Below are positions 30,124 to 33,612 of a stretch of 64,000 bases of DNA, piece by piece. Within the stretch, counting starts at the first letter, position 1, and each line of letters begins with the position of its first letter. The stretch spans positions 124,001-188,000 of the forward strand of contig NZ_CP069338.1 of NCBI RefSeq assembly GCF_016859125.1, written 5' to 3'. Both the position numbers and the translations under genes were made by a program. A model generated the notes under the pieces. That model searched no databases. It was given only the letters and a program-made list of their open reading frames with translations, and was not told the origin of the DNA. The DNA comes from Archangium violaceum (GTDB lineage: Bacteria; Myxococcota; Myxococcia; Myxococcales; Myxococcaceae).

Positions 30124-31704
30124 CTATTTCGCCACGTATTGCTCCAACCGGGCGATTCCCAGCTTCTTCATGCGACTCTGCAGCGTGGAGGGTTTGAGAC
30201 CCAACAACGCCGCGGCGCCTCCCGGGCCGTAGATGCGGCCCTGCGTCAGCGTCAGCACACGCAGGATGTGCTGCCGCTGCACCTCCTCCAGTGTGGGCAC
30301 CGCGCCTGCTTGCAGCGGCGGAGCCTCCACCGTGCCGTCCACCGTCTCCGGCACGCGCAGCGGCAGGTCGAACGCCTCGGCGCCCAGCTCCGGCTTGCGC
30401 GACAGGATGGTGGCGCGCTCCAGCGCGTTGGCCAGCTCGCGGATGTTGCCCGGCCAGTCGTACGCCGCGAGGCGGGCGATCCCCTCCGGCGTCACCCTCA
30501 CCCCCCGCCGCCCGGTGCGCCGGGCCTGCTCCTCCAGGAGGAACGCGCACAGCTGCGGCAGATCCTCGAGCCGCTCGCGCAAGGGAGGCAGCCGCAGCGG
30601 GAAGACGCTCAGCCGGTAGTACAGGTCCTCCCGGAAGCGCCGCTCGGCGATGGCCTTCTGCAGGTCCACGTGCGTGGCCGCGAGGATCCGCACGTCCGCG
30701 CGCACCGTGCGGTCGCTGCCCACCGGCTCGAAGGTCTTCTCCTGCAGGGCTCGCAGCAGCTTGGCCTGCAGCTCCACCGGCAGCTCACCCACCTCGTCCA
30801 GGAAGAGCGTGCCCCCATGTGCCATCTGGAAGCGGCCAGCCCTGTCCCGCGTGGCGCCCGTGAAGGCCCCCTTCACGTGGCCGAACAGCTCACTTTCCAA
30901 CAGCCCCGCGGGGATGGCCGCGCAGTTGAGCGTCACGAAGGGCCCCTCCGCCCGGGGGCTCCAGCGGTGCACCGCTCGCGCCAGCCGCTCCTTGCCCGTG
31001 CCCGTCTCGCCCAGCACCAGCACCGGCGTCTCCGTCTCCGCCACCTGCCGCCCCCGCCGCGCCAGCTCGCGCACCGCCGCGCTGCGCGACGTCTCCAGCA
31101 CCCCCACCTCGTCCCCACCCAGCTGCGCCTCCAGCAGCCGCGCGTGCTCGTGCTCCCTCCGGTGCAGCCGCTCGAAGGTGCTCTTCTGCTCCGTCTCCTG
31201 CAGTGACGTGGCCAGCATCTGTCCGTACACCTCCACCAGGTCCACCACCGCCTGCGGGTACGTCTCGCACTCCGTCCGGTCCAACGTCAGCAGCCCGTAG
31301 CAGCGCTCCCCCGCGCACAACGGCACCACCATGCACGAGTGCCCCGGCGGCAGATCCAACACCCCATCGAAGGGGTCTCCGTCCCCGTGCGCGTGGTCCT
31401 CATGGGTGAAGGCCCGGGCCCGGCGCGTCTCCAGGGCCTGGCGCAGCGTGGGGAAGTCCGTCAGCTTCAGCTCGTGGCGCCGCACCTGCTCCGAGGCCAA
31501 CGGCCCCCGTGCCGCCACCGCCACCAGCTTTCCTTCTCGCAACAAGAAGAGGGTCGCCAGGTCGAAGCGAACCACACGTGTGAGCCAGTCCAGGCCCCGG
31601 CGCAGCAGCTCCGCCACCGTCTCTTCCGAGGTCGCCAGCTCGATCAGGTCCCGGGCTTCCCTGCGAAGTTCGGCCCGTGTCAGCGCAACGATGTCATCCG
31701 CCAT
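30124..31704 (-). CDS. GAF-domain sigma-54 enhancer-binding protein (Fis family)
   Basis: The protein has 526 residues and starts at the ATG at 31704. An N-terminal GAF domain (about 20-165) contains four cysteines (C124, C130, C135, C146). A central AAA+ domain has Walker A GETGTGKE (about 231-238), the sigma-54 contact loop GAFTGA (about 279-284), Walker [13 protein letters not shown] and arginine-finger motifs. A C-terminal Fis helix-turn-helix ends [16 protein letters not shown]. It activates RNA polymerase-sigma54. It is divergent from ahpC, whose upstream region holds a -24/-12 promoter and a palindromic site, so ahpCD is the probable target and an oxidant or other small-molecule signal to GAF is likely (inference). 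Confidence 0.92.
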
Positions 31705-31737
31705 GCGTCAGCTTAAATAACCGGGGCGACACCGAAA

Positions 31738-31755
31738 TGTCAGTGGCGTCTGACA
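31738..31755. promoter_or_regulatory. Enhancer-like palindrome (UAS) for the sigma-54 activator
   Basis: TGTCAG-N6-CTGACA is a perfect inverted repeat centred about 97 bp upstream of the -24 element at 31843. This distance is typical of enhancer sites. It also lies just upstream of the activator gene's own start at 31704, so autoregulation is possible. Confidence 0.6.
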
Positions 31756-31762
31756 CCGATAT

Positions 31763-31778
31763 TTCGGTATGTACCGAA
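31763..31778. promoter_or_regulatory. Second inverted repeat in the ahpC regulatory region
   Basis: TTCGGT-ATGT-ACCGAA is perfect. ATTTCGGT at 31761-31768 also pairs with ACCGAAAT at 31731-31738, giving three related ACCGAA elements around the TGTCAG palindrome. It could be a second activator dimer site. Confidence 0.45.
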
Positions 31779-31841
31779 CCGGCGGCACCGTTCGTGAAGT
31801 GGGAAGGAGTCAACCCTTTGGAATCATTGGTGGAGTTTCCC

Positions 31842-31857
31842 TGGCACGAACGCTGCT
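31842..31857 (+). promoter_or_regulatory. Sigma-54 (-24/-12) promoter of ahpCD
   Basis: TGGCACGAACGCTGCT has the invariant GG (31843-31844) and GC (31855-31856) separated by exactly 10 nt. It matches the consensus TGGCAC-N5-TTGCW at all but one base. It lies 72 nt before the ahpC start, with transcription expected near 31868. Confidence 0.8.
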
Positions 31858-31929
31858 CCAAGTAGTACGCGAAACGAACCTGTCCGGCCCGCCAGCAGGC
31901 GGGCCTCAACCCCGAAGGAGTCGAACCAA

Positions 31930-32484
31930 ATGCTGACCGTTGGCGACAAGCTTCCCGCGTTCAACCTCACTGCCACCGTGAGCCTGGAGAAGGGCAAGGA
32001 GTTCAAGGAGATCAACCAGGACTCCTACAAGGGGAAGTGGCTGGTCCTCTTCGCCTGGCCCAAGGACTTCACCTTCATCTGCCCGACCGAGATCGCCGAG
32101 TTCGGTAAGCGCGACAAGGACTTCCAGGACCGCAACGCGCAGGTGCTCGGCCTGAGCACCGACAGCGAGTACGTGCACCACGCGTGGCGCACGCACCACC
32201 CGGACCTGAAGAACCTGCCCTTCCCGATGCTCGCGGACATCAAGCGTGAGCTGAGCGCGGCCCTGGGCATCCTGCACAAGGACGCGGGCGTGGCGCTGCG
32301 CGCGACCTTCATCGTGGACCCGCAGGGCATCATCCGGCACGTGTCGGTGAACGACCTGTCGGTGGGCCGCAACGTGAGCGAGGTGCTCCGCACGCTGGAC
32401 GCGTTCCAGACGGACGAGCTCTGCCCCTGCAACTGGCAGAAGGGCGAGGAGACGCTCACCAAGAAGCTGGCGAAGGCGGGGTAA
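31930..32484 (+). CDS. ahpC: Alkyl hydroperoxide reductase, peroxiredoxin subunit
   Basis: The protein has 184 residues. The ATG at 31930 follows AAGGAG. It is a 2-Cys peroxiredoxin reducing peroxides and peroxynitrite in the cytosol. The peroxidatic Cys is in DFTFICPTEIAEF, the conserved Arg region is LRATFIVDPQG, and the resolving Cys is in the C-terminal DELCPCNWQKGE. The CPC pair is typical of the AhpC form that is recycled by AhpD, whose gene follows after 6 nt. Expression is predicted from the sigma-54 promoter at 31842 (seen) under the divergent activator (inference). Confidence 0.95.
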   Translation: MLTVGDKLPAFNLTATVSLEKGKEFKEINQDSYKGKWLVLFAWPKDFTFICPTEIAEFGKRDKDFQDRNAQVLGLSTDSEYVHHAWRTHHPDLKNLPFPMLADIKRELSAALGILHKDAGVALRATFIVDPQGIIRHVSVNDLSVGRNVSEVLRTLDAFQTDELCPCNWQKGEETLTKKLAKAG

Positions 32485-32490
32485 TACGCC

Positions 32491-33018
32491 ATGGCGTCGC
32501 TCGAAGTCGTTCGTGGTGAGTTGGCGGATGCCCACAGGGACACCCGGCTGAACCTCCAGTCGGTGCTGGAGAACAACAGCCTCACCCCCGAGCAGCGCTG
32601 GGGGGTGGCGGTGGGCAGTGCCTACGCGGCTCGTAACGAGCTGATCAAGAAGGCCCTGCTCAACGAGGCCCGTCAGGCGCTGGGCGAGAAGGCCGAGAAC
32701 GTCATCGAGGACGCGCGCGCCGCGGCCTCGCTGATGGGGATGAACAACATCTACTACCGGTTCCGCCACATGGTGGGGAAGGAGTCCTACTCCACCAAGC
32801 GGGCCGGTCTGCGGATGAATCGGCTGGTGCAGGTGCTCACCAACAAGGTGGACTTCGAGCTCGTCTGCCTGGCGGTGAGCGCCATCAACGGCTGTGAGAC
32901 GTGCATCCAGGCCCACGAGAAGGTCGTCATCGAGGGCGGTCTCTCCGAGGACCAGGTGCACGACGCCGTCCGCATCGCCGCGGTCATCCACGCGGCGGCG
33001 GTGGGTCTCGAGTCGTAG
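32491..33018 (+). CDS. ahpD: AhpD, alkylhydroperoxidase (carboxymuconolactone decarboxylase family)
   Basis: The protein has 175 residues. It reduces oxidised AhpC using a CxxC active site: AINGCETCIQAHEKVV contains C-x2-C followed by the proton-relay His. The flanking helices (RLVQVLTNKVDFELVCLAVSA, GLSEDQVHDAVRIAAVIHAAA) fit the AhpD helical fold, and the length is standard. In mycobacteria AhpD is recharged by lipoamide and dihydrolipoyl dehydrogenase; the same link is likely here (family knowledge). It is the second gene of the operon and is followed by a strong terminator. Confidence 0.93.
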   Translation: MASLEVVRGELADAHRDTRLNLQSVLENNSLTPEQRWGVAVGSAYAARNELIKKALLNEARQALGEKAENVIEDARAAASLMGMNNIYYRFRHMVGKESYSTKRAGLRMNRLVQVLTNKVDFELVCLAVSAINGCETCIQAHEKVVIEGGLSEDQVHDAVRIAAVIHAAAVGLES

Positions 33019-33045
33019 TAGGCGTTCCGCTTCATGCTGACATCA

Positions 33046-33087
33046 GACGCGCCCTCCGGTGGAAACACCGGGGGGCGCGTCGCTTTT
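33046..33087 (+). terminator. Rho-independent terminator after ahpD
   Basis: GACGCGCCCTCCGGTG, a GAAA loop, and CACCGGGGGGCGCGTC form a 16-bp stem with a single T-G wobble. The stem is followed by GCTTTT. It separates ahpCD from dps. Confidence 0.85.
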
Positions 33088-33135
33088 GGAGTCCACGCAT
33101 CCAAAGAAGCAAACGAACACGAAAGGAACGAACGC

Positions 33136-33612
33136 ATGTACCGCAGCCCGAGCCCCCTTCCCGAGCAGACCCGCTCCGCCGTCTCCGCCACCCTCAACGA
33201 GCGACTCGCCGATGGTCTGGATCTGCACAGTCAGATCAAGGTCGCCCACTGGAACATCAAGGGCCCGCAGTTCGCGGCGCTCCATCCGCTCTTCGAGACC
33301 TTCGCCGTCAGCCTGGCGACCCACAACGACTCGGTGGCCGAGCGCGCGGTAACGCTGGGAGGCAAGGCGTATGGCACCACCCGGCACGTGGCGAAGACGA
33401 GCCGCATCCCGGACTACCCGCAGGACACGACGAAGGACCTCGAGCACGTGCGGCTGTTGGCCGAGCGCATCGAGGCGTACCTGAGTGGCGTACGTGAGAG
33501 CCGCAAGGTGGCCGAGCAGCACCAGGACACGGACACGGTGGACCTGCTCACGGGCATCATCACCGAGTTCGAGAAGCACGCCTGGTTCCTGCGCGCCTCG
33601 CTGGAGAGCTGA
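33136..33612 (+). CDS. dps: Dps-family DNA-protection ferritin
   Basis: The protein has 158 residues. The ATG at 33136 follows AAGGAA. It is a dodecameric mini-ferritin that oxidises Fe(II) with peroxide and protects DNA. Seen: VAHWNIKGPQFAALHPLFETF (ferroxidase His and neighbouring acidic sites), ATHNDSVAERAVTLGGKAYGT, and ITEFEKHAWFLRASLES at the end. It stands just after the ahpCD terminator, extending the oxidative-stress island. Separate or read-through transcription cannot be decided from the sequence. Confidence 0.93.
   Translation: MYRSPSPLPEQTRSAVSATLNERLADGLDLHSQIKVAHWNIKGPQFAALHPLFETFAVSLATHNDSVAERAVTLGGKAYGTTRHVAKTSRIPDYPQDTTKDLEHVRLLAERIEAYLSGVRESRKVAEQHQDTDTVDLLTGIITEFEKHAWFLRASLES

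Follow-up and report, generated by a model that had tools for sequence, protein, structure and literature searches.

We propose that the gene divergent from ahpCD encodes a dedicated NorR-like sigma-54 activator of this operon, carries a peroxide-altered GAF domain and belongs to a peroxide-defence family, a reading to which we assign a probability of about 0.68. The activator would bind tandem ACCGAAATnnCRGT-type sites, the putative operators, and its NorR-type GAF domain probably holds one non-haem iron. Peroxide would alter the GAF domain and lift its restraint on the AAA+ ring, the GAFTGA loop of which would open the sigma-54 polymerase at 31842-31857, so that AhpC and AhpD are made. The activator would be one member of a family attached to varied peroxide-removing genes. 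The promoter, the operators, the loop and the gene order, plus their conservation, are visible in the sequence, from which we infer activation, the iron, the peroxide signal and autoregulation. Features of the window, i.e. the whole 64-kb stretch of DNA analysed, are listed in Table 1.

Table 1. Features of the ahpCD locus and its divergent activator, in window coordinates.
Feature	Position	Strand	Basis
NorR-like activator, 526 aa: GAF + AAA+ (Sigma54_activat) + HTH_8	30124..31704	-	Pfam, NCBIfam, orthologues
GAFTGA loop (sigma-54 contact)	30853..30870	-	sequence read and alignment
GAF sensor domain, residues 28-169	31198..31623	-	Pfam, alignment, predicted fold
Putative operator 1, ACCGAAATGTCAGT	31731..31744	+	conservation
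Palindrome TGTCAG-N6-CTGACA of the original prediction, present, not conserved	31738..31755	.	sequence, genus comparison
Putative operator 2, ACCGATATTTCGGT	31755..31768	+	conservation
Palindrome TTCGGTATGTACCGAA, weakly conserved, containing a third ACCG half-site (~31774)	31763..31778	.	sequence, conservation
-24/-12 element TGGCACGAACGCTGCT, GG-N10-GC spacing	31842..31857	+	pattern match, conservation
Predicted transcription start, 12 bp past -12	31868	+	inferred from element position
ahpC peroxiredoxin, FICPTE and ELCPCNW cysteine motifs	31930..32484	+	sequence, Pfam, NCBIfam
ahpD, CETC motif	32491..33018	+	sequence, Pfam, NCBIfam
dps, next same-strand gene after ahpD, operon membership putative	33136..33612	+	Pfam, NCBIfam, neighbour scans

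Domain models upheld the identities first given to ahpC (AhpC-TSA) and ahpD (CMD, AhpD family), and Pfam and the alignment confirmed the divergent activator as a GAF, Sigma54_activat and HTH_8 protein with an intact GAFTGA loop. The regulator adjoining ahpC belongs to the AAA+ activators and to neither the LysR nor the Fur family. It has the NorR architecture (GAF, AAA+ with GAFTGA, Fis-type HTH), and its top NCBIfam model is NorR (401.8 bits, below the cut-off of 476 for NF003451), a cut-off exceeded in none of the 20 relatives' genomes. The genome has a single rpoN match (223.4 bits).

The element TGGCACG-N4-CTGCT, predicted at the outset to lie before ahpC, was borne out: 72 bp separate the end of TGGCACGAACGCTGCT from the ahpC ATG, and this is the single match to TGGCACGN4YTGCW in the 64-kb window (0.02 expected). 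In the whole 12.68-Mb genome, the pattern occurs 24 times, versus 10 for a reversed control pattern. Among close relatives, the -24/-12 element is present at 16 of the 20 loci with upstream DNA when the first pattern is used, and is kept at fixed spacing, as the original prediction would have it. Sigma-54 control of ahpCD is therefore well supported by sequence conservation.

It is improbable that ahpC is driven mainly by another promoter or regulator (OxyR-like, Fur-family or housekeeping sigma), with the sigma-54 element playing a minor part. OxyR-like and Fur-family genes do occur elsewhere in the genome, a conserved block including CAACCCTTTGGAATCA (31811-31826) lies unexplained upstream of -24, and a clade of relatives with a destroyed GAFTGA loop retains ahpCD without the sigma-54 element. 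Against these points, scans of 31600-33250 found neither a sigma-70-like promoter nor a terminator, and the -24/-12 element and the operators are conserved with fixed spacing. CAACCCTTTGGAATCA falls within a longer stretch, AAcccCTGGAATCA, kept in close relatives between the operators and -24; this stretch may be the site of another regulator, a sigma factor or a bending protein.

A dedicated sigma-54 switch for ahpCD, as predicted, has good support from conservation, with the qualification that it probably adds to classical regulation rather than replacing it. The window genome encodes an OxyR-like protein (279.5 bits, under the 329-bit OxyR cut-off) and two Fur-family proteins, the latter away from ahpCD. 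In one relative (G004, locus L193), an OxyR-like gene and a catalase gene form a divergent pair. Because an OxyR-like protein is present, and is catalase-divergent in that relative, the sigma-54 switch probably complements classical control; the presence of this protein counts against our best reading.

The putative operators are two tandem ACCGAAATnnCRGT-type sites, 24 bp apart, which we call ACCGAAAT sites. Their centres lie ~105 and ~130 bp ahead of the predicted start at 31868. Two sites within 4 mismatches of the consensus ACCGAAATTTCGGT were found in 50 of 55 intergenic regions and in 5 of 2750 shuffles, the consensus having been derived from the same, related loci on which it was counted. 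The operators flank and partly overlap the palindrome TGTCAG-N6-CTGACA, of which a single copy exists in the window at up to 1 mismatch (0.14 expected). The palindrome is real but was rejected as the operator: its right arm is altered in other genomes of the genus, so that the conservation expected of it among relatives was not found.

Since the operators sit 27-64 bp from the activator's own start, autoregulation is likely on positional grounds. It is nevertheless very improbable that autoregulation or control of an unlinked regulon is the main role of the sites and the activator, with the proximity of ahpC being incidental. The activator-ahpCD gene pair is retained across Myxococcota, and targets vary between clades yet remain peroxide-removing. 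A genome-wide regulon built on the operator pattern was also discarded, as hits away from ahpC are at background (9 versus 12 for the control).

A second copy of the activator, 53% identical over nearly its full length, is encoded in the same genome (L029:2573-6540, about 9.586-9.590 Mb), with a catalase and an ankyrin-repeat gene directly downstream. A separate AACGAAATnnCGTT-type site accompanies this paralogue; the corresponding pattern has one genome-wide hit, ahead of the gene for the paralogue itself, equal in number to the single hit of the control pattern. The catalase is preceded by no more than a weak -24/-12 candidate (score 18.5), which counts against our best reading.

Orthologues of the window activator, defined by E <= 1e-150, were found in 21 of 59 relatives, the window's genome counted. 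ahpC and ahpD are divergent from and adjacent to the activator at all 20 loci with upstream DNA, window included; L027, which lacks such DNA, was excluded from this count. Across Myxococcota, the GAF model matches 74 of 195 genomes and 17 of 90 genera.

Scanning 84,980 species genomes with the pattern GH[SA]C, we retained the best 80 loci. Among these best 80, ahpC is found near 57, dps is matched at 26 and often kept in place, and a peroxide-removing gene lies near 70, compared with 0 of 11 true NorR loci. In contrast, NO-detoxification genes occur at none of the best 80 family loci and at all 11 NorR loci. Neighbours were sought within the fetched stretch (up to ~4 kb per side). The peroxide panel (AhpC, AhpC-glutaredoxin, KatG, catalase, cytochrome c peroxidase and rubrerythrin) was drawn partly from the family's own loci, and the 11 NorR loci and pieces of the window genome served as controls; of 42 such pieces (172.5 kb), only 2 match, both carrying the window's own ahpC. 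The NorR set comprises the E. coli protein and ten plasmid-borne ones, and all 11 loci match norV, norW, hmpA, norB or ytfE.

Pfam identified the neighbours at several other loci as KatG-type peroxidases (L106, L120), di-haem cytochrome c peroxidases (L125, L126), rubrerythrins (L128, L129, L134, L141), proteins combining Redoxin and Glutaredoxin (L133, L140) and an Fe/Mn superoxide dismutase (L136). Twelve other non-ahpCD loci were examined for a -24/-12 element between activator and neighbour: ten score at least 20 and the remaining two 19.0 and 19.5, scores that carry no shuffle control and include the L120 site, which falls inside the annotated start. Ten family loci have no match to the panel (L075, L076, L099, L115, L116, L127, L131, L135, L137 and L139). 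L075 (Myxococcus dinghuensis) and L076 (Corallococcus sp. AS-1-6) are close orthologues with no ahpC within ~4 kb, and a dicarboxylate symporter gene adjoins the L075 activator.

The analogy with NorR first suggested for the activator was upheld and extended by the sensor domain. The window GAF domain has the NorR-type residues D110, D113, H122, C124 and D142, along with the family-only residues H104 and C146; of the iron ligands proposed for NorR, the window protein has D96, D99, C113 and D131, together with H111, and lacks R75. In a family set of 82 proteins (window, paralogue and the best 80 loci), Asp96, His111, Cys113 and Asp131 of NorR are kept in all 82 and D99 in 75; the retention of H111 and C113 is in part a product of the scan pattern, whereas the other columns are free of such selection. 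Arg75 is present in all 11 NorRs and in none of the 82 family proteins, where the residue is S (42), T (33, among them the window protein), D (3), M (2), G (1) or A (1). His104 and Cys146 are invariant in the family (82/82); among the 11 NorRs, one has the His and none the Cys. A quick tree splits NorRs from the family with full SH-aLRT support. The predicted GAF fold (mean pLDDT 81) has as its top PDB match 3k2n, a domain of a sigma-54 regulator, while the search for solved relatives by sequence returned one weak hit alone, 3o5y.

That the kept sensor residues are those of an NO sensor speaks against our best reading, and the activator could instead sense NO or peroxynitrite as NorR does, with AhpCD acting as a peroxynitrite reductase. 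Peroxynitrite is reducible by AhpC-type peroxiredoxins, and the full retention of four ligand residues, with D99 in most proteins, fits this alternative. We regard it as unlikely. Homologues of norV, norW, norB, hmpA and ytfE, found at all 11 NorR loci, are missing from the neighbourhoods of the best 80. Moreover, the family lacks R75 throughout, the ligand proposed for displacement by NO in NorR in the available part of PMC2941729.

The family resembles NorR in its GAF-AAA+-HTH layout, GAFTGA loop and -24/-12 promoter, in its divergence from the target, in the tandem upstream sites and in the residues D96, H111, C113 and D131. It differs in the loss of R75, in the additional invariant H104 and C146, and in its targets, which are peroxide-removing genes rather than norVW, norAB or hmp. 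Its operators are ACCGAAATTTCGGT-like, unlike the tandem GT-N7-AC sites described for NorR in the portion of PMC1274295 at hand, and the window activator scores below the NorR cut-off. On Arg75, score, neighbours and operator, the activator falls outside NorR, although its working mode is probably NorR-like.

The preferred reading, that of a peroxide-responsive activator, can be extended beyond this locus. The occurrence of the family beside peroxide genes in several phyla points to an overlooked sensor of peroxide or a related stress. We hold with evenly balanced confidence that this is a third type of bacterial peroxide sensor, next to OxyR and PerR, in which a GAF metal site derived from that of NorR has exchanged Arg75 for other residues and gained His104 and Cys146. 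It would drive the sigma-54 promoters of AhpCD, KatG, catalase, cytochrome c peroxidase, rubrerythrin and peroxiredoxin-glutaredoxin genes in Myxococcota and, by record titles, in Planctomycetota, Gemmatimonadota and Acidobacteriota. If this is true, the family is a separate solution to peroxide sensing with an ATP-driven switch, and an example of an NO-sensing iron site that has been retuned.

According to the accessible text of PMC8115020, OxyR or PerR is considered to be the H2O2 sensor of most bacteria. ahpC under OxyR or PerR control is the same kind of target, AhpC being found with AhpD and with Dps nearby, but the regulator is a LysR- or Fur-family protein, whereas here it is an adjoining sigma-54 AAA+ activator. 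Peroxiredoxin and cytochrome c peroxidase genes are also found on sigma-54 promoters in Mesorhizobium, where, according to the available part of PMC3538637, prxS and ccpR are under NifA/RpoN control. That activator, NifA, is tied to symbiotic nitrogen fixation in the same portion of text, while the activator described here is a dedicated neighbour. Searches of the open-licence literature, judged by titles, openings of abstracts and the parts of the texts that were accessible, turned up no recognisable report of an ahpCD-dedicated sigma-54 activator or of a peroxide-sensing NorR relative. In M. xanthus, MXAN_1564 is AhpC (accessible parts of PMC4158809 and PMC7643160), and MXAN_1565 is listed as an NtrC-like activator for which an insertion mutant exists (PMC8570273, Table 1, seen as an extract). 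Because the two gene numbers are neighbours, and given locus L069 of M. xanthus AM003, MXAN_1565 is likely the orthologue of the window activator; with its listed mutant, the peroxide-switch reading is directly testable in that species.

Variation in the GAFTGA loop was compared with promoter content in 55 rows, namely the window and 54 of the best 80 loci with a divergent ahpC within 900 bp. Loci were dropped if they lacked a divergent ahpC at this distance or had ahpC on the same strand (L117, L132), and L093 was measured from dps; the operator count given above used these same 55 rows. A fixed -24/-12 score with unfitted weights was applied to the region 30-130 bp before the first gene. Of the 46 loci with a GA[FY][TS]GA loop, 44 have the element; among the 9 whose loop is altered, 1 has it, and the opposite strand yields it in 1 of 55. 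A strict correlation (Fisher p 3e-7) had to be toned down: the tree has 2 independent loop changes, which is few and counts against our best reading, and several of the exceptions carry -24 elements.

When a -12 without C is allowed, a -24 element is present at all 46 canonical loci and at all 5 G[GS]FTGA loci, 45 of these 51 having the canonical -12 GC, and at none of 4 loci with destroyed loops (GAFAGA, GAFASA and two deletions); this relaxed rule was set after the exceptions had been inspected, and is reached by 330 of 2200 shuffles and 5 of 55 opposite strands. L091, L092, L094 and L096, which have G[GS]FTGA loops, share TGGCCCGAWTCTCGAT before ahpC, a -24 with an unusual -12. TGGCCCA-N4-TTG(A/T) precedes ahpC at L098 and L101. 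In the GSFTGA and GGFTGA group, loop and -12 may have co-evolved.

Orthologues with destroyed loops (L097, L112, L119, L122 and L131) form one clade, and the joint loss of the loop and of -24/-12 is therefore suggestive only. The four of these loci with ahpC DNA retain the operators and lack -24/-12, and thus another mode of control would operate in that clade, as if the activator had turned sigma-54 independent, which counts against our best reading. This clade offers a natural experiment in how an AAA+ activator becomes independent of sigma-54.

In the activator tree, the nearest named relatives of the window genome are Archangium species. L066, from a record titled Comamonas sp. KCTC 72670, is a Myxococcus-like locus that falls within Myxococcus, for which mislabelling or contamination of the record is the probable cause.
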